This document shows positions 6,947 to 16,740 of a DNA stretch of 34,794 nucleotides, one piece after another. The stretch is from a virus: positions 1-34,794 of IMG/VR virus record IMGVR_UViG_3300035670_000756, one strand, 5' to 3'. The translations under genes were made by a program, and so were the position numbers. Every line of letters begins with the position of its first letter. The stretch's first letter is position 1. The notes under the pieces were generated by a model that was not told the DNA's origin, did not search any database, and saw only the letters and a program-made list of their open reading frames with translations.

Positions 6947-7050
6947 GATCGACGCAGACCTCTGTATCACTGCTGGTTCTGTCGTTAAGGACTTAAAGTT
7001 TAAAATTTAAAATCTTAAAACCCCGCTGATACAAGTCCTCTGCGTCAATC
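6947..7050. repeat. Long imperfect inverted repeat flanking an A/T core
   Basis: The left arm is GATCGACGCAGA (6947-6958) followed after four bases by TGTATCA (6963-6969). The right arm is TGATACA (7027-7033) followed after five bases by TCTGCGTCAATC (7039-7050). The outer arms match at 11 of 12 positions and the inner arms at 7 of 7. The 57 bases between the inner arms include a run of A/T blocks around 6990-7020. This could be an origin dyad or a binding site for a dimeric protein. Confidence 0.7.
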
Positions 7051-7062
7051 TATATTGAGGGT

Positions 7063-7071
7063 ATGATAGCA
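7063..7071 (-). promoter_or_regulatory. Candidate extended -10 promoter for the leftward late genes
   Basis: On the minus strand the sequence reads TGCTATCAT, an extended -10 element (TGn plus TATCAT). No good -35 box is visible upstream, which extended -10 promoters can tolerate. It lies about 190 bases before the small-terminase start, with the long dyad between them. Evidence is the motif alone. Confidence 0.3.
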
Positions 7072-7116
7072 CATTTTTACTTGATTTAGTAGTGCTTGAC
7101 TTAAATTAGTTTCTAA

Positions 7117-7166
7117 TGATGACCTTCGCAGTGTTCATTATCTGTCTCTGATGACCTTCGCAGTGT
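7117..7166. repeat. Two 18-bp direct repeats, 32-bp period
   Basis: TGATGACCTTCGCAGTGT occurs exactly at 7117-7134 and 7149-7166. The core GACCTTCGCAGT returns once more at 8225-8236, in the leader of the ArdA-like gene. The 32-base period is close to three helical turns, so bound proteins would sit on one face of the DNA. Confidence 0.85.
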
Positions 7167-7334
7167 ACAGTTTCTGATATTACACCAGCGTTAGATAATA
7201 TTATTTAATATCAACTACATAGCAATGCTCTATCTTACTCTTTTTTTTATAGATTAAAACTATCATTTTTACTTTTTGTAGATCTATGTTGGTTCAACAT
7301 AATCACCACAACATTACTACACCCCTCCCCCCGT

Positions 7335-7424
7335 CTATGTTAGTCAGTGTTCACATACTAGATGTAGTATTGTTAGTGAGTACTTACTACTAGATGTAGT
7401 AGGACTATGTTAGTCAGTACTAAC
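7335..7424. repeat. Iteron-like repeat cluster
   Basis: CTATGTTAGTCAGT occurs at 7335-7348 and 7405-7418. TACTAGATGTAGTA, itself a dyad (TACTA/TAGTA), occurs at 7356-7369 and 7388-7401, again 32 bases apart. A perfect inverted repeat GTTAGT-CAGT-ACTAAC spans 7409-7424. Degenerate relatives (TGTTAGTGAGTACT, TGTAAGTGAGTGCT) lie at about 7371 and 7447. The arrangement resembles origin iterons or a multi-site operator. Confidence 0.75.
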
Positions 7425-7619
7425 TGGGTATGGTGCAGTGTAGCATTGTAAGTGAGTGCTGACATAGGACCACTATAGACCAGTAAAGATCTAGCACAAA
7501 CCATGCCAGAAGCCAGAAGCATAAACTATGCCGAAAAGTGGTCACTAACATTGGCCCAGAAAATAATTACTATAACCCTTGTATATGTCAGGGAATACTA
7601 AGCTTATGATTTTACATTG

Positions 7620-7648
7620 TTGGTGCATTGCATCATGCCTGGGATAAT
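7620..7648 (+). promoter_or_regulatory. Candidate sigma70 early promoter
   Basis: TTGGTG at 7620-7625 and GATAAT at 7643-7648 are separated by 17 bases. The -10 is 5/6 and the -35 keeps the TTG. Initiation near 7655 would give an approximately 80-base leader containing the AC run, ending at the first early gene. The -35 is weak, so this is a candidate only. Confidence 0.4.
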
Positions 7649-7733
7649 AACCCTTCAAAGCATGTGGCACGATTTTCTCACATATAGTATTAGAAGGACC
7701 GCTGCAACACACACACACACAAAAGGAAACAAG

Positions 7734-7961
7734 ATGCAAACAATCAACTACGCAACAGGACGCAATTACGGAATGCCGCAGATTCTGTCGATCACAATTG
7801 AGAGTGAGACCACAGATGAATATGGCTTCACAGATGTCGTTGCAAGCTTCTCTGATGCCTCTCGCAACATATCAGGCAGGGTTACCCTAGTAACAGACAC
7901 TAAAGGCCTAGGACAGGCCGTATTGATGGCGTATGATGCTGGTCAGTATCAAACCATCTAA
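7734..7961 (+). CDS. First early gene, hypothetical protein
   Basis: A 75-residue protein (MQTINYATGRNYGMPQILSI...). The ATG at 7734 follows AAAGGAAAC. It is beta-rich by eye, with alternating hydrophobic and polar residues (ITIESETTDEYGFTDVVASF), and shows no membrane segment or catalytic motif. As the first gene after the control region it would be expressed earliest, a position where phages often keep host-takeover or anti-defence proteins. Its function is unknown. Confidence 0.65.
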   Translation: MQTINYATGRNYGMPQILSITIESETTDEYGFTDVVASFSDASRNISGRVTLVTDTKGLGQAVLMAYDAGQYQTI

Positions 7962-7969
7962 CCAACCAA

Positions 7970-7983
7970 GGGGCTTCGGCCCC
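7970..7983 (+). terminator. GC-rich hairpin with TTCG tetraloop
   Basis: GGGGC (7970-7974), loop TTCG, GCCCC (7979-7983) form a very stable UUCG-capped hairpin 9 bases after the first early gene. No T-run follows, so a full intrinsic terminator is unlikely. It may instead attenuate, or protect the upstream mRNA end. Confidence 0.6.
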
Positions 7984-8012
7984 GATTCAATCAACCAACG
8001 GAGATTAAAACC

Positions 8013-8171
8013 ATGACACACACCAACACAGAGACCAACGCCAGACTGATCGCATCAGCACCAGCACTGTTAGAAGCCCTTGAATGGGTGCTAGCGACAC
8101 GCAATCAGACAGAGGCACACAAGCAAGCCTTGGAGATGGCACAGAGGGCTATAGAGGCCGCCAAAGGCTAA
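8013..8171 (+). CDS. Small phage protein with N-A-R-L-I-A-x-A-P motif
   Basis: A 52-residue protein, MTHTNTETNARLIASAPALL followed by EALEWVLATRNQTEAHKQAL and ending AIEAAKG. The NARLIA-APxLLEAL pattern is a recurrent short phage domain of unknown role. It is wholly helical. ACGGAGATT at 7999-8007 provides a ribosome site before ATG 8013. Confidence 0.7.
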   Translation: MTHTNTETNARLIASAPALLEALEWVLATRNQTEAHKQALEMAQRAIEAAKG

Positions 8172-8183
8172 TAGTGTACTCTT

Positions 8184-8228
8184 CCAGTGCCTTGTTGACG
8201 CAGGGCATTGGAGGGTCTACACTAGACC
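8184..8228. repeat. Two adjacent hairpins in the leader of the ArdA-like gene
   Basis: CCAGTGCC (8184-8191) can pair with GGCATTGG (8204-8211) with one wobble. GGTCTA (8214-8219) pairs perfectly with TAGACC (8223-8228) across a CAC loop. The third copy of the GACCTTCGCAGT repeat begins inside the second hairpin at 8225. No T-run follows. The structures could control translation of the next gene or be protein-binding sites. Confidence 0.55.
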
Positions 8229-8267
8229 TTCGCAGTATCCTAAAACTTGGACAAAGGAGCATTACAA

Positions 8268-8762
8268 ATGACTACGACCACAATCATGAACGACCAGGAC
8301 ATCATCGATAGCCGAGACATCATTAACCGCCTCGAAGAACTAGAGGGTGAATTGCTTGCTTGCTTCAATGAGCAACAAGAGACCGAGTGCTTTACTATCT
8401 CTGATGAATCCGAAGAGATATATCAAGCCAGTAGCGTAGCAGATAGACTTTTTCAGAATTGGTTAGAGGATTGCCGCATCGAAGAGGCCGAAGAGTATAA
8501 GACCCTCGCAGAGTTAGCCGATCAGGGACAATCCGAGAGCAGTGATTGGATTCATGGCGAGACCCTCATCCGTCGCTCTTACTTTGTGGACTACACCGAA
8601 GAACTCATAAACGATTGCTATGAGATGCCAAAGCAGATGCACTCTGGTGATTGGCCTTTTCGTCATATAACCATTGACTACGAAGCCGCCGCCAAAGAAC
8701 TTGAGCAAGACTATGCCTCGATAGACTTTGATGGCGTAGAGTATCTCATTCGTTCATGCTAA
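8268..8762 (+). CDS. Acidic ArdA-like protein, candidate antirestriction DNA mimic
   Basis: A 164-residue protein starting at ATG 8268 after AAGGAG (8254-8259). Asp plus Glu total 41 and Lys plus Arg 11, giving a very acidic protein. The second half, from YKTLAELADQ through WIHGETLIRRSYF and YTEELINDCYEMPK to ITIDYEAAAKELEQDY, lines up by eye with the C-terminal domains of ArdA antirestriction proteins (pattern: L-EL, then YxxEx, then P, then IDYExxxxxL). ArdA mimics bent B-DNA and blocks type I restriction enzymes. An obvious ArdA N-terminal domain is not seen. The early position fits anti-defence. The family link is by eye and needs a profile search. Confidence 0.5.
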   Translation: MTTTTIMNDQDIIDSRDIINRLEELEGELLACFNEQQETECFTISDESEEIYQASSVADRLFQNWLEDCRIEEAEEYKTLAELADQGQSESSDWIHGETLIRRSYFVDYTEELINDCYEMPKQMHSGDWPFRHITIDYEAAAKELEQDYASIDFDGVEYLIRSC

Positions 8763-8776
8763 TCATTGGAGAAGAT

Positions 8777-8977
8777 ATGACAATCTCAATCAGAGAATAC
8801 AAGGGTGTCGATTTCGGTCATGCACACTATGTTCTTCGGAAGCATTATGACCTAGGCAGACCGCTAACGACAGACGAAGTAAAGGCAGAGATTGATAATC
8901 TCATTCGGAAGCATAATGCTATGTCACTGGATTATGTCGGTGAGCATCTTCATGCTTCTATTTTCAGGAAAGGATAA
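8777..8977 (+). CDS. Small hypothetical early protein
   Basis: A 66-residue protein starting at ATG 8777, preceded by TTGGAGAAG. It reads MTISIREYKGVDFGHAHYVL, then PLTTDEVKAEIDNLIRKHNA, and ends HASIFRKG. An upstream in-frame ATG at 8756 overlaps the ArdA-like gene and is less likely. No known motif; a winged or helical DNA-associated fold is possible but not shown. Confidence 0.6.
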   Translation: MTISIREYKGVDFGHAHYVLRKHYDLGRPLTTDEVKAEIDNLIRKHNAMSLDYVGEHLHASIFRKG

Positions 8978-8983
8978 ACCATC

Positions 8984-9154
8984 ATGCACAACGAAAACCC
9001 CTTCATGGCTAACCTACGCAAACGAGAAGAATCAGAGAAGAATAGCTTTTATGACGATCCACTCGAAAGAGTGCTAGCATCACACCCAACAGGGACGGCT
9101 ATAGTGGTATGCTTTCTGGCCTATGTGCTGCTGTTCTTGGCTTTAAGCTTCTAG
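8984..9154 (+). CDS. Small single-pass membrane protein
   Basis: A 56-residue protein. The first 35 residues are charged (ANLRKREESEKNSFYDDPLE), followed by one hydrophobic segment to the C-terminus (TAIVVCFLAYVLLFLALSF), so it is probably tail-anchored in the inner membrane. AAAGGAT precedes ATG 8984. Function unknown; small early membrane proteins in phages often act in superinfection exclusion or host takeover, which here is only a guess. Confidence 0.6.
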   Translation: MHNENPFMANLRKREESEKNSFYDDPLERVLASHPTGTAIVVCFLAYVLLFLALSF

Positions 9155-9277
9155 AATGCTCTATAGCGGCCTTGTCTGCCCAGGACATAGGGTAGGCTAG
9201 GCCAGGCTATAGCAACGGCACAGAGAGGCTAATAGTGGCCTTGCTGAGGCTGTTTAATCTTAACGAAAGGGTTTACA

Positions 9278-9625
9278 ATGAAAACAAGTGAATTGCAGGG
9301 TGCTGCACTCGATTGGGCGGTGGCGAAAGCCGATGGGTTAGAATTTATGGTTATAAACGGAGGTGTTTTTATCCCTGATGAGGATGGTGTAGACGAACCC
9401 TACCAATATCGGCCTTCAACTGTTTGGGACGATGGCGGTCCGATTATTGATAGGGAAGGGATAGCCTTGCAAATGCACTTTGGGGATTGGATTGCCCTTC
9501 CCTATGATTCGGCATTTTCCGAAGAGGCTTACCAACAAGGCCCAACACCTTTGATTGCCGCCATGCGTTGTTATGTCGCTAGTCAATTGGGCGATGAAGT
9601 GAGCATTCCAGAGGAATTAATATGA
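9278..9625 (+). CDS. DUF2591 / NinX-like phage protein
   Basis: A 115-residue protein with the family pattern from end to end: MKTSELQGAALDWAVAKADG at the start, then YQYRPSTVWDDGGPIIDREG in the middle and TPLIAAMRCYVASQLGDEV at the end. DUF2591 includes P22 NinX and many phage early proteins; no biochemical role is established. CGAAAGGG precedes the ATG. It heads a cluster whose next two genes are joined by ATGA overlaps. Confidence 0.85.
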   Translation: MKTSELQGAALDWAVAKADGLEFMVINGGVFIPDEDGVDEPYQYRPSTVWDDGGPIIDREGIALQMHFGDWIALPYDSAFSEEAYQQGPTPLIAAMRCYVASQLGDEVSIPEELI

Positions 9626-9837
9626 ACAATGAAATTAGAGAAGAGCGTGTTAAAACCCTCGCCATTGGGCTGACCATATTTGCCGAAGAGCATGGCTATA
9701 GTGAGGCAGAAACTTGCTTCGCTTGTTTGGTGGCGGCTGCTGGAATTGCTCCGATGACAATGAAGCGTGAAGTGATGGCTTTCTTTGCCGATTGTCTCGA
9801 TGGCTCCGAAGGGGTCAAAGTAAAGGAAAGAGAATGA
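9622..9837 (+). CDS. Small hypothetical protein, helical
   Basis: A 71-residue protein overlapping the DUF2591 gene by ATGA. It contains VKTLAIGLTIFAEEHGYSEA and TCFACLVAAAGIAPMT, which suggest a compact helical bundle with two cysteines. No known motif. It is translated as part of the DUF2591 cluster. Confidence 0.6.
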   Translation: MNNEIREERVKTLAIGLTIFAEEHGYSEAETCFACLVAAAGIAPMTMKREVMAFFADCLDGSEGVKVKERE

Positions 9838-10016
9838 ACGAAGAAGAATATATTTGTTATGGTTCATTAGAGTATACTGGCGAAGAAGGCCATGTTATTT
9901 ATGAACCTGAGTTCTTTGATGAACTACCGAGAATAATTAAATTAGATATTCTCAGTGATTGGATATATGAATTACAACAGACCTATGAACAGGTCAGACA
10001 ACAGGAGGACGATTAA
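9834..10016 (+). CDS. Small acidic hypothetical protein
   Basis: A 60-residue protein starting at ATG 9834 with an ATGA overlap and an AAAGGAAAGA ribosome site. It is acidic (MNEEEYICYGSLEYTGEEGH, then EPEFFDELPR) and has an amphipathic C-terminal helix (IYELQQTYEQVRQQEDD). No known motif. Confidence 0.6.
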   Translation: MNEEEYICYGSLEYTGEEGHVIYEPEFFDELPRIIKLDILSDWIYELQQTYEQVRQQEDD

Positions 10017-10018
10017 AA

Positions 10019-10219
10019 ATGTTATCTTTCAATGGTAGGCGACTGACGGCAGTGACAGTGCAGGACATCGATTTCAAAGATTATCCCGACTTCTGCGACG
10101 CCTTCATAGAATCGGCAGTGTGGGAAGATACAGGGGAGGCTTTGACGGATGACGAACTCGACCAGGTGAACGAGGATGGCACTCTGCGATGGGATGCTAC
10201 AATGGCGGTGATATATTGA
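10019..10219 (+). CDS. Conserved small phage protein
   Basis: A 66-residue acidic protein with KDYPDFCDAFIESAVWEDTG and ALTDDELDQVNED. This D-[YF]-P-D-F-x-D-A-x-I-E-S-A pattern recurs in small phage early proteins of unknown role. It starts two bases after the previous stop, behind AGGAGG. Confidence 0.65.
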   Translation: MLSFNGRRLTAVTVQDIDFKDYPDFCDAFIESAVWEDTGEALTDDELDQVNEDGTLRWDATMAVIY

Positions 10220-10224
10220 ACACC

Positions 10225-10389
10225 ATGGGTAATGGGAAGGCGATAGCAAAACCTAAGACAATAGACCACTATATTCATCTACTACAGGAGGGAAAGTTTA
10301 AGAAAGCATCAAAGCTTCAACCTTGCGTTGATCAACATAAACAGATATGGAATAGATACCTTAAACAATGGAGGGAATATGCGCTGTAG
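10225..10389 (+). CDS. Small basic hypothetical protein
   Basis: A 54-residue basic protein, MGNGKAIAKPKTIDHYIHLL and then a lysine/tryptophan-rich end (KQIWNRYLKQWREYAL). ATG 10225 lies five bases after the previous stop; an in-frame ATG at 10189 would overlap the previous gene. Among mostly acidic neighbours it is the one basic protein, so it may bind nucleic acid. No motif identifies it. Confidence 0.5.
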   Translation: MGNGKAIAKPKTIDHYIHLLQEGKFKKASKLQPCVDQHKQIWNRYLKQWREYAL

Positions 10390-10627
10390 ATCTTGTGATG
10401 AAGCTTTAACCGATTATGAATCGACCAGGAAAAGCCTTGCCACTGGTGACTATATCAACCTATGCCGTGGATGCTTCGACACCATCAAAGGGGAATGCTT
10501 GGCCTTTGGTAATCCTTCGTTGATGACAGAGGATGATGACCAGTATAGTCTCTCAGCACTGATGGAAGATCAATTTGATTCACTAGACGATGATGGTTTT
10601 TACGATGAATACAATGATCGAGAATAG
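10379..10627 (+). CDS. Small zinc-ribbon-like phage protein
   Basis: An 82-residue protein starting at ATG 10379 behind GGAGGG. Two Cys pairs, CRSC at residues 3-6 and CRGC at about 29-32, form a likely zinc ribbon, followed by a very acidic tail (DDDQYSLSALMEDQFDSLDD). The start overlaps the previous gene by 11 bases. Similar CRSC-type proteins are common in phage early regions. The role is unknown. Confidence 0.65.
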   Translation: MRCRSCDEALTDYESTRKSLATGDYINLCRGCFDTIKGECLAFGNPSLMTEDDDQYSLSALMEDQFDSLDDDGFYDEYNDRE

Positions 10628-10659
10628 TGTTGGCATGATTCTTGCTAATATTGTTATTA

Positions 10660-10723
10660 TTACTCTATAGAGTAAAAGAGATAATTTATAATTATGATTT
10701 ATACTCTATAGAACTCTATAGAG
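10660..10723. repeat. ACTCTATAGA repeat cluster before the replication genes
   Basis: A perfect 16-base palindrome, TTACTCTATAGAGTAA, spans 10660-10675. ACTCTATAGA then occurs twice in tandem at 10703-10712 and 10713-10722, with a following G. The 119-base gap is otherwise AT-rich. The 10-base tandem spacing is one helical turn. This looks like an operator or promoter element controlling the helicase-primase block. A related CTCTATAGC lies at 6911 in the main control region. Confidence 0.7.
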
Positions 10724-10746
10724 CAACATAGAAAGGTAGGGCTTCA

Positions 10747-10941
10747 ATGAATTCTGAACAAGTGTTTATTTTCACTGTCCACGATCTTGTGTCTTTGATT
10801 GAGTCGAATGAGGTCGATCTGCTGCTGGTGGTGTCGCAACTTCGTCGACAACTGCACAGGCCAGACCCACAGGTGGAGCAGGTCTACTCGGTGCTGACTG
10901 CGACGACAACAGAGGAGCGTTACTTTAATGGCAAAGCTTAA
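10747..10941 (+). CDS. Small hypothetical protein before helicase-primase
   Basis: A 64-residue protein (MNSEQVFIFTVHDLVSLIES..., then VDLLLVVSQLRRQLHRPDPQ). It is helical with no motif I recognise. AAAGGTAGGG precedes the ATG, and the last 14 bases overlap the helicase-primase start, so the two are coupled. Confidence 0.55.
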   Translation: MNSEQVFIFTVHDLVSLIESNEVDLLLVVSQLRRQLHRPDPQVEQVYSVLTATTTEERYFNGKA

Positions 10942-12532
10942 CGAAGAAAGTAAATTTCTTTATCACACTGAGTGCTCTAAGTGCGGTAGCAGTGACGGCA
11001 AGAGTGTATGGTCTGATGGACATACTTGGTGCTTTGTCTGCGAAACCCACGAGAATGGTCCAGGAGAGGCTCCAATGGCCTTGGACATACCTGTACTAGT
11101 ACCGAAGGCTTCTAAGCCGTTACAGAGGCCAATAGAGGCCTCCATGGGGGTGTTCCAGGCCATAGCGGATAGGAATATCACCATCGAGACCTGTAGACAC
11201 TATGGTGTCACCTCTACAAATGAGAATCATTCTTATCCTTATGGCAAAGGTTCAAAGATCAGAGTCGTTGAAACTAAGGATTTTAGATGGAGCGGTAAAC
11301 CTGACCATGATCTCTTTGGCATGGACAAGTTCAGTGCTGGTGGTAAGGCAGTGACGCTGGTGGAGGGTGAATTAGATGCTCTAGCGGCATATCAGATGCT
11401 AGGATCAAAGTATGCGGTGGTAAGTGTCAGAAACGGTGCATCAGGTGCGGTGAAAGACTGTCAGAAGGCTTACGAATGGCTCGACAAGTTCGATAGCATT
11501 GTGATCGCATTTGATGCTGATGAACCTGGACAGAAGGCTTCTAAACAGGTGGCAGAGTTGTTCGGTAGTAAGGCCAAGGTGGTGAAGTTCTCGCCAGAGT
11601 TCAAGGACGCTTGCGACTATCTGAAGGCCAATAAGACGGCTCAGTTTGTGCAGGACTGGTGGCGTGCAGAGACTTTCAAGCCTGATGGTGTCATCGATGC
11701 AGAGCAGTTGCGAGATAAGATCAAGACACCCTTGGAGGTTGCGCCGATCCTGTATCCTTGGAATGGATTAAACAAGATGCTCTATGGCATTCGACCTGCT
11801 GAGTTGGTGACTTTTACTGCTGGTTCTGGCCTTGGTAAGTCTACTATGCTTCGTGAATTGGTGGTGCATATCTTGAAGAACAGTCAAGAGAACATTGGAC
11901 TTGCTTTTCTTGAGGAAACCCCTGAGAGGACTATGCGGGGCTTGATTGGCTTGGAGTTGAATAAGAAGATTCACCTGCCTGATGCCGTGTACACTCCAGA
12001 GGAAATCGACAAGGCTTATGACAATCTACAGATAGGGCAGCGAGTATTCTTGTGGGATCACTTCGGTTCTAATGAGATTGATGCTGTATTGAACAGGCTC
12101 AAATACTTCGTAAAAGCACTTAACTGTAACTATCTGGTGCTAGATCACTTGTCTATTCTTGTCTCTGACCAAGCAGCCGCAGACGAAAGACGAGCGTTAG
12201 ATTTGATCATGACCAAATTGAGAATGTTCGTGCAGGAAACCAACACATCGCTTTTGCTTGTCTCTCACCTGAAAAGGCCAGATGGTAAATCACTAGAGGA
12301 TGGCGCAGTGACTTCTTTAAGTTTACTTCGTGGCTCAGGCTCGATCGCTCAGTTGTCAGATGCGGTCATCTCAGCAGAAAGGAACAGTCAAGCAGAGAAC
12401 ATTATAGAAAGGAATACAACCAGGGTTAGAGTGCTTAAATCTAGGTATACAGGCTATACAGGACACGCTTGTGACTTGTATTATGACGATATGACTGGTC
12501 GATTGAGGGAGATTGCACAAGATTCTTTATAA
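10928..12532 (+). CDS. T7 gp4-like DNA primase-helicase
   Basis: A 534-residue bifunctional replication protein. The zinc-binding domain has C16, C19, C35 and C38. The TOPRIM primase domain has VEGELD at 145-150 and FDADEPG with D195 and D197. The DnaB-like helicase domain has Walker A GSGLGKST at 298-305, and further on FLEETPE and LVLDHLS (Walker B region) and SHLKRP. It unwinds the fork and lays down primers for the family A polymerase encoded downstream. Length and order match T7 gp4A. All expected motifs are present. Confidence 0.95.
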   Translation: MAKLNEESKFLYHTECSKCGSSDGKSVWSDGHTWCFVCETHENGPGEAPMALDIPVLVPKASKPLQRPIEASMGVFQAIADRNITIETCRHYGVTSTNENHSYPYGKGSKIRVVETKDFRWSGKPDHDLFGMDKFSAGGKAVTLVEGELDALAAYQMLGSKYAVVSVRNGASGAVKDCQKAYEWLDKFDSIVIAFDADEPGQKASKQVAELFGSKAKVVKFSPEFKDACDYLKANKTAQFVQDWWRAETFKPDGVIDAEQLRDKIKTPLEVAPILYPWNGLNKMLYGIRPAELVTFTAGSGLGKSTMLRELVVHILKNSQENIGLAFLEETPERTMRGLIGLELNKKIHLPDAVYTPEEIDKAYDNLQIGQRVFLWDHFGSNEIDAVLNRLKYFVKALNCNYLVLDHLSILVSDQAAADERRALDLIMTKLRMFVQETNTSLLLVSHLKRPDGKSLEDGAVTSLSLLRGSGSIAQLSDAVISAERNSQAENIIERNTTRVRVLKSRYTGYTGHACDLYYDDMTGRLREIAQDSL

Positions 12533-14936: not shown

Positions 14937-15073
14937 AGCCACAAGGGATCACTGCCGTGTACAACAAGAGTGGTGTACTGACCTTGTATGTGCTGATGGA
15001 GGATGGTACAATTATGTTCAAACGAGAAGATGAGGATACATGGCACACGACTTCACTGGGGATGCCTCTATAG
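14933..15073 (+). CDS. Small hypothetical protein before DNA polymerase
   Basis: A 46-residue protein, MKPQGITAVYNKSGVLTLYV and then LMEDGTIMFKREDEDTWHTT. ATG 14933 overlaps the DUF1289 stop as ATGA, so it is preferred over the upstream in-frame ATG at 14843, which would run through the DUF1289 gene. It forms a small beta-meander by eye. It overlaps the polymerase start by 34 bases. Confidence 0.6.
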   Translation: MKPQGITAVYNKSGVLTLYVLMEDGTIMFKREDEDTWHTTSLGMPL

Positions 15074-16740
15074 TTTTCTTAGACATAGAGACAAACACTA
15101 AACATGATCAAATCTGGTGTTGTGTAACAAAGAAAGATGGAATTACTGAATGTCATACAGAACCTTCAAGCCTAAGAAAACTTCTAAAGAAGACCGACAC
15201 AATTGTAGGACACAATGCGCTGGCCTTCGACATCTACCTATTAAACAAGTTGTGGGGTTTTCGGATCAAGCGTCAGCAGGTTATGGATACTCTGATCTTG
15301 AGCAGACTATTGAGTCCATCGAGAGAAAACGGTCACAGCCTCGCAGCATGGGGAAACAGGCTAGGTTATCCGAAGATTGAGTTCAGTGATTACGATGCTG
15401 GATTGTCTGATGAGATGATCCAATACTGCATCAGAGATGTTGAAGTCCTAGAAAGGGTATATTATGCACTCGAAGATGAAAAACGAAATTATGGATTTTC
15501 TGAGCAATCCATTACTTTGGAGCATGAAGTCGCTGCAATCATTAGCAGACAAGAGCGTAGAGGCTTTCGACTCGATGTGCCTTTCACTATGGTACTGGCC
15601 TCACAATTCAGAGACAAGGCAGCAGCCATCGAGCAAGAGTTACAACAACTCTTCCCGCCCATCGTCACAGAAAGAATTAGTGAAAAAACGGGCAAGAGAC
15701 TCACGGACAAGATCGAAGTCTTCAACCCAGGCTCAAGGCAACAAATCTCAAAGCGACTCATCGACCTTGGGTGGAAGCCAACAAAGAAAACAGAAAAGGG
15801 ATCGGTCATCGTAGACGAGAAGACACTAGAGGAGATTAGCACCAATGCGAGATATGCCAGTAAACCTGTCCTTGTTTCTGTTGCTGCTAAACTCCAAGAA
15901 TACCTGTTGCTTTCAAAAAGGCACAGTCAAGTTCAGTCCTGGCTTGATGTTGTTCAAGAGGATGGGAGAGTTCGTGGTAAGGTCATCACCAACGGAGCGG
16001 TGACAGGAAGAGCAACACACCATAGTCCCAATATGGCTCAGATTCCTAACATCAATAGTCTTTATGGGAAGGAATGTAGGCAGTGTTGGACGGTAGAAGA
16101 AGGACATAAATTAGTTGGTATTGACTTGGCACAATTAGAACTTCGTTGTCTTGCTCACTATATGAAAGACGATGAATATACAAAGGAGTTATTAAGTGGC
16201 GACATCCACACAAAAAACCAACAAGCTGCTGGGCTTTCTACTAGGAGTGAAGCCAAGACATTCATCTTTGCCCTATGTTATGGAGCAGGGGCAGAGAAAA
16301 TCGGTCTTATTGCTGGTGTTGATAAAACAAAAGGCCAACAACTTATCGATAGGTTTCTGGCAAATACCCCATCTCTCAAAAAACTTAGAGAAAAAGTTGA
16401 ACGGTTGTCTGAGAAAGGGTTTCTACCAGGATTGGATGGTCGTATCTTGCACATACGATCCCCGCATGCTGCACTTAACACACTACTGCAAAGCGCAGGT
16501 GCTATCGTTAGCAAGCAGTGGATGGTTGAACTTAACAAAATGGCAGCAAAGGAGCAAATCGAGTTTCACCAAGTCGCATGGGTCCATGATGAATTACAGT
16601 GTGAAGTTAGAGAAGAGTCTGCTGAAAGACTGGGCCAACTCGCAGTAGAGGCTGCAAAGAAGGTTACAGAGGTGTTTGATATGCGCTGTCCAATGGATGC
16701 TGAGTACCATGTTGGAAATAATTGGGCAGATTCTCATTAA
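15040..16740 (+). CDS. Family A DNA polymerase with 3'-5' exonuclease
   Basis: A 566-residue replicative polymerase. The exonuclease domain opens with FLDIETN (D15, E17) and has NALAFD near residue 59. Polymerase motif A is GIDLAQLELR with D362; motif B is RSEAKTFIFALCYG at 402-415; motif C is HDE at 516-518. The position equivalent to E. coli Pol I 762 is F410. At 566 residues it is shorter than T7 gp5 (about 700), so the thioredoxin-binding insertion may be reduced or absent. It acts with the primase-helicase and the ssDNA-binding protein encoded nearby. Confidence 0.95.
   Translation: MAHDFTGDASIVFLDIETNTKHDQIWCCVTKKDGITECHTEPSSLRKLLKKTDTIVGHNALAFDIYLLNKLWGFRIKRQQVMDTLILSRLLSPSRENGHSLAAWGNRLGYPKIEFSDYDAGLSDEMIQYCIRDVEVLERVYYALEDEKRNYGFSEQSITLEHEVAAIISRQERRGFRLDVPFTMVLASQFRDKAAAIEQELQQLFPPIVTERISEKTGKRLTDKIEVFNPGSRQQISKRLIDLGWKPTKKTEKGSVIVDEKTLEEISTNARYASKPVLVSVAAKLQEYLLLSKRHSQVQSWLDVVQEDGRVRGKVITNGAVTGRATHHSPNMAQIPNINSLYGKECRQCWTVEEGHKLVGIDLAQLELRCLAHYMKDDEYTKELLSGDIHTKNQQAAGLSTRSEAKTFIFALCYGAGAEKIGLIAGVDKTKGQQLIDRFLANTPSLKKLREKVERLSEKGFLPGLDGRILHIRSPHAALNTLLQSAGAIVSKQWMVELNKMAAKEQIEFHQVAWVHDELQCEVREESAERLGQLAVEAAKKVTEVFDMRCPMDAEYHVGNNWADSH

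Follow-up and report, generated by a model that had tools for sequence, protein, structure and literature searches.

An acidic phage protein family that joins an ArdA domain 3-like C-terminal part to a variable helical arm, with a predicted anti-restriction role

Results

A strongly acidic protein is encoded near the start of a presumed early gene block

The window analyzed here is the whole 34,794-nt stretch of IMG/VR record IMGVR_UViG_3300035670_000756 (positions 1 to 34,794), which derives from an aquatic phage. Its DNA polymerase is closest to those of marine podoviruses (pelagiphages, Roseobacter phages, and Siovirus), with identity of no more than 47%. The gene under study runs from an ATG at 8268 through its stop codon to 8762; this and the other features of the locus are collected in Table 1. 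Translation of the ORF gave 41 Asp and Glu versus 11 Lys and Arg residues in 164, the same counts as in an earlier, sequence-only reading of this DNA, and a net charge of -30. None of the other ORFs among the 14 most acidic has a larger net negative charge; in negativity per residue, the protein ranks second among the 52 listed window ORFs.

The gene is among the first ORFs of a + strand block that begins near 7.7 kb and continues downstream with genes for a primase-helicase (10928-12532), DNA polymerase A (15040-16740), ThyX, and a class II ribonucleotide reductase. The opposite strand carries the structural genes, those for terminase and portal among them. The early position claimed in the sequence-only reading is thus borne out as far as gene order goes, with the gene preceding those for the primase-helicase and DNA polymerase and standing where the presumed early block begins. 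From this placement, we infer that the protein would be expressed early.

Table 1. Coordinates of features at the locus and the evidence for each
Feature	Position in window	Strand	Evidence
Upstream RNA hairpin, 23 pairs, loop of 4; possible processing site	8172..8224	+	-32.4 kcal/mol, z -6.1
Sigma-70-like promoter match TTGACG-17-TACACT overlapping the hairpin (tentative)	8195..8223	+	9/12 positions; such matches in the region are not above chance
Ribosome-binding site AAGGAG	8254..8259	+	Sequence; also present in related contig L261
CDS of acidic ArdA-related protein (164 aa)	8268..8762	+	ORF, composition; at least 90 relatives; PHROG 25535, E 1.6e-19
Conserved N-terminal motif (aa 8-29), D-x-IDSRD-x-I-x-R-x-EEL, family-specific	8289..8354	+	Family alignments; residues 1-91 without ArdA match
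Acidic helical arm (aa 30-90); length and sequence vary	8355..8537	+	Comparison of 73 relatives; helices in AlphaFold2 model
ArdA domain 3-like C-terminal part (aa 93-164)	8544..8759	+	hhalign E 1.5e-9 versus ArdA; 2W82 first by Foldseek and VIA (isolated domain)
Downstream structured spacer, two hairpins (about 9161-9212 and 9214-9254)	9161..9254	+	z -4.0; conservation in L261

The protein belongs to a widespread phage family

Used as a single-sequence query, the window protein gave no match in Pfam, PDB sequences, plasmids, or bacterial genome contigs. PHROG 25535, which carries no functional label, matches it nearly end to end (residues 4-160 on profile positions 2-133 of 135), and the best match of this PHROG among the relatives reaches E 4.9e-71. 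Relatives were found by tblastn in phages of Citromicrobium, Erythrobacter, Caulobacter, Burkholderia, and Mycobacterium and, more weakly, in Arthrobacter and Gordonia phages; a profile-guided scan of viral contigs yielded 91 relatives, 80 of which were kept. One family member lies near the left end of the genome of Burkholderia phage Paku, a T7-like phage. Most relatives are annotated as "hypothetical," a few are named ArdA-like or antirestriction, and 4 of 13 relatives matched PHROG 2059 (anti-restriction). When the family profile was run against PDB sequences, only unrelated or weak matches were returned.

Family alignments revealed a common layout in which the conserved N-terminal motif is followed by a variable middle and a conserved C-terminal part with a terminal Y-x-x-R. 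In relatives from Caulobacter and Erythrobacter phages, an additional N-terminal part of about 100 aa precedes the family motif (L012, 1653-2423; L010, 1683-2408).

The C-terminal half matches ArdA at the level of the family

The sequence-only reading had described the second half of the protein as following the ArdA C-terminal pattern and had proposed a profile-profile comparison with ArdA. We carried out this comparison with hhalign, using the family profile of residues 91-164 and a broad reference set of 102 ArdA sequences from plasmids, genomes, phages, and viral contigs. The match had an E of 1.5e-9 and a score of 54.5, and the best of 150 column-shuffled versions scored 22.4; the claimed pattern therefore holds for the family. 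A comparison with a narrow alignment of six ArdA sequences gave E 0.009 and 4.6e-4, and in that case 1 of 100 shuffles scored nearly as high. The Pfam ArdA profile, PF07275, was matched by 31 of 60 relatives at E 0.01 or better (best, 3.9e-9), the match in most singly inspected relatives spanning profile positions ~58-64 to ~150 of 155. At least one relative, L049, exceeds the 27-bit cut-off (31.8 bits). The window protein itself has no PF07275 match; a Pfam ArdA search of its own genome is uninformative, as it gave no match there or in control genomes.

When sequences were scored with an ArdA HMM, the family median was 13.9 bits, and the maximum was 5.2 bits for reversed and 9.9 bits for 1460 shuffled sequences. 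The window protein scored 10.0 bits, barely over the best shuffled sequence, so it is the family, and not this one sequence, that carries the link to ArdA. Two methionines of the window protein, M120 and M124, are hydrophobic residues near the equivalents of Leu127 and Leu134 at the ORF18 dimer interface, in a loop that is gapped in the profile alignment. At position 103, the window protein has a basic residue (R103) where 99% of its relatives have an acidic one.

A family-specific strand and an acidic arm stand in place of ArdA domains 1 and 2

Residues 1-91 did not match the ArdA profile (E 0.24 over 6 columns), in agreement with the earlier observation that a clear N-terminal ArdA domain is lacking. 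By both profile and structural model, the three-domain layout of ArdA, with its N-terminal domain 1 and helical domain 2, is absent from the window protein. Instead, the N-terminal ~90 residues consist of a family-specific strand and an acidic helical arm, which take the place of domains 1 and 2. Judged by the strict profile cut-off and by how its domains are arranged, the window protein falls short of a full ArdA.

Across the relatives, the arm varies from 20 to 104 aa, and its mean pairwise identity is 28%, versus 47% and 51% in the flanking regions. Nevertheless, the arm is net negative in all 73 relatives compared. The comparison suggests that the arm conserves its charge more than its exact sequence. 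Whole proteins are likewise acidic in all 73 examined, with a median of -23, and share their negative charge with ArdA. Charge conservation in the arm, as read from these alignments, fits DNA mimicry, although it is no proof of it.

Structure prediction supports the relation of the C-terminal domain to ArdA

An AlphaFold2 model of the full-length protein, built from 50 aligned sequences, had a pLDDT of 92.1 and a pTM of 0.82. It contains a short strand (12-14) and three helices (15-39, 54-68, and 72-90) in the N-terminal portion, followed by a strand (99-102), helices at 103-117, 122-126, and 138-146, and a hairpin at 149-162. Compared with the PDB, ArdA (2W82) ranked second, with a non-significant E of 1.9, and VIA aligned residues 77-164 to ArdA 76-164 with Z 2.8. 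In a viral structure library, members of the family itself ranked highest, and several of the matches beneath them are named ArdA-like or antirestriction. Other full-length look-alikes (MutSbeta, IpaD, and Mical) were set aside as helical resemblance that dominates the search.

Since helical look-alikes dominated the full-length search, the C-terminal domain was predicted alone (pLDDT 86.5). With this isolated domain, 2W82 was first of 350,542 PDB chains by Foldseek, at a weak E of 0.91, and first by VIA, also weakly (Z 4.0, 3.4 A, 64 residues, ArdA 91-165). HetR (Z up to 3.9, within one Z unit of ArdA) and winged-helix matches, with scores near that of ArdA, were read as shared topology. The absence of an ArdA fold, which the sequence-only reading had named as part of the outcome that would count against it, was not what we found, the ArdA structure ranking first for the isolated domain, although at scores that are weak on their own. 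Taken together with the sequence profile, they support a relation to ArdA.

Acidic composition combined with a common small fold might also produce such a resemblance by accident. The window protein alone, at 10.0 bits versus 9.9 for the best of 1460 shuffled sequences, would fit this explanation, as would the low fold scores and the closeness of HetR and winged-helix domains to ArdA. We regard it as very improbable: the family comparison scores far over its column-shuffled controls, the match is collinear and reaches both C-termini, and ArdA comes first among all PDB chains searched with the isolated domain. We conclude, from profile comparison and a supporting model, that the C-terminal ~72 residues are very probably homologous to ArdA domain 3.

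Comparison with known antirestriction proteins

The family shares with ArdA (PF07275; Tn916 ORF18, PDB 2W82; plasmid ArdA such as that of R46) the C-terminal domain 3, by profile and by collinear structural alignment, as well as a strong net negative charge and carriage on mobile elements. It differs in that ArdA residues 1 to ~75, comprising domain 1 and most of domain 2, have no counterpart in the phage family, which has the conserved N-terminal motif and acidic helical arm instead. A parallel in domain content, judged from the published description, is sArdC (PMC12548430), a small acidic protein that keeps only the C-terminal portion of ArdA. sArdC comes from bacterial chromosomes and has 114 aa in L. 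cremoris, whereas members of the phage family have, in addition, an N-terminal motif and arm of their own. C-terminal-only ArdA was therefore already known (sArdC, 2025), and what is new is a phage ArdA domain 3 protein with an N-terminal arm of its own. The match to PHROG 25535 extends over the full length; that group carries no label of function, and its connection to ArdA, which is new here, would suggest a likely function for a widespread phage family listed as unknown. With T7 Ocr (gene 0.3), a small, very acidic, early phage blocker of type I restriction, the proposed analogy is functional only: no sequence relation was found, and the secondary structures of Ocr and ArdA are described as very different (PMC3906837).

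Proposed function

Our prediction is that the product of the ORF is an ArdA-type anti-restriction protein of the phage, probably synthesized early, and we consider this reading reasonably probable; for the wider statement, an anti-restriction or related anti-defence role, our confidence is fairly good. Judged from sequence and model, the protein likely works like ArdA. The type I HsdMS core is put forward as its exact target more tentatively, at somewhat under an even chance.

The scheme takes the homology and the arm, which are seen in the comparisons above, as its starting point. The protein would be made soon after phage DNA entry, and its domain 3-like part would dock, possibly as a dimer, where ArdA domain 3 has been modelled, on the core of a type I restriction enzyme that comprises the methyltransferase and specificity subunits. 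The acidic arm might then prolong the negative surface along the DNA path. With the enzyme occupied by the DNA mimic, the incoming genome would remain uncut.

We favor the anti-restriction reading because of the family profile match, the PF07275 matches in 31/60 relatives and PHROG 2059 matches in 4/13, and the first rank of 2W82; because of the negative charge in 73/73 relatives, the position at the start of the presumed early block, and the left-end position in Paku; and because ArdA domain 3 has been placed on the methyltransferase core in modelling (PMC3906837) and sArdC is active, this 114-aa protein, which matches only the ArdA C terminus, protecting lambda from EcoKI and EcoR124II (PMC12548430). 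The reading is weakened by the 10.0-bit score of the window protein alone, by weak fold scores, and by the basic R103. It is also weakened by the absence of domains 1-2, to which work on ORF18 mainly assigned antirestriction; antimodification was lost in some ORF18 mutants (PMC3906837). The phage family bears on the point at which these mutants and sArdC, with antirestriction by a C-terminal piece, stand against each other.

The arm replaces the ArdA domains assigned to antirestriction, and its length differs widely between phages. This could mean that a DNA mimic derived from ArdA kept the domain 3 scaffold but had its arm and surface adapted to a different DNA-binding target, be it a defence or a host protein (for instance, a BREX methyltransferase, a nuclease, a nucleoid protein, or a transcription factor). 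T7 Ocr, also a DNA mimic, blocks BREX (PMC7261183), and ArdA proteins are able to change gene expression in E. coli (PMC13300388). Classical ArdA, however, is without effect on BREX or EcoPI (PMC10149784), and sArdC still acts on type I systems with the C-terminal part only (PMC12548430). We consider a target other than type I enzymes unlikely, and the suggestion in the sequence-only reading that a different N terminus redirects the protein to other defences is a guess. Should the anti-restriction reading be true, ArdA-type DNA mimicry would extend to proteins keeping only the dimer/methyltransferase-facing domain. A natural family that combines domain 3 with a variable acidic arm makes it possible to ask directly whether target and strength depend on the arm.

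Predicted RNA hairpins border an exchangeable segment that holds the gene

The upstream hairpin is the lowest-energy local fold found in a genome-wide scan of the window's + strand, and the second best is at 9157-9218; the ArdA-like gene and two small ORFs lie between the two. The 100 bases at 8172-8271 are 96% identical to positions 2101-2198 of a related viral contig, L261, whose primase-helicase is 62% identical to that of the window. The spacer at 9138-9283 is 80% identical to L261 3016-3158, and one of its stems shows two compensatory double changes. In L261, the counterpart of 8172-8271 is flanked on either side by genes that differ from those of the window. At the same site (2195-2527), first in the segment between the structured spacers, L261 encodes an unrelated acidic protein (110 aa, net -21, phrog_9974, which carries no functional label), whose gene is a further anti-defence candidate. 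No ORF of L261 was matched by the family HMM or by the ArdA HMM. Since L261 keeps both spacers with other genes between them, sequence comparison places the ArdA-like gene in an exchangeable segment with structured borders. This is supported by one independent relative, because L261 and L262 are identical over the aligned stretch.

RNase III processing sites occur in T7 early RNA. By analogy, the bordering hairpins may plausibly be RNase III processing sites; the promoter match overlapping the first of them is an alternative reason for its conservation. A terminator was set aside for the upstream hairpin, which has no T-run after it and is absent from the terminator scan list. Rfam gave no match in 7000-11000, pattern scans of viral contigs for the upstream hairpin recovered only the already known relative, and the papers searched contained no report of RNase III sites preceding early genes.

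Exchange at this site also bears on a further explanation, namely that an ArdA-derived fold serves an unrelated role, such as inhibition of a host enzyme or aid to phage replication or transcription, rather than anti-defence. Close members lack a known activity and are mostly annotated as hypothetical, and the gene adjoins small ORFs without known function. Such a role is nonetheless rather improbable in our judgment, given the charge kept in all 73 relatives and homology to a family of known antirestriction function; patchy occurrence across phages of many hosts, along with gene exchange at the same site in L261, better fits an accessory anti-defence gene. More broadly, one may speculate that the dimer/methyltransferase-facing domain of ArdA is a phage platform with an exchangeable acidic arm, whose length and charge would set the defence blocked (type I in some phages, BREX or others elsewhere), the gene sitting in an early anti-defence slot with RNA-hairpin borders into which unrelated acidic genes are swapped. 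We give this broader picture a low chance.

After the second structured spacer, at 9278-9625, the window encodes a NinX-like protein (PF10765, E 3.2e-19). Farther downstream, palindromic CTCTATAGAG elements recur at 10662-10732 and together make up a long AT-rich inverted repeat, which precedes an ORF at 10747 and the primase-helicase gene.
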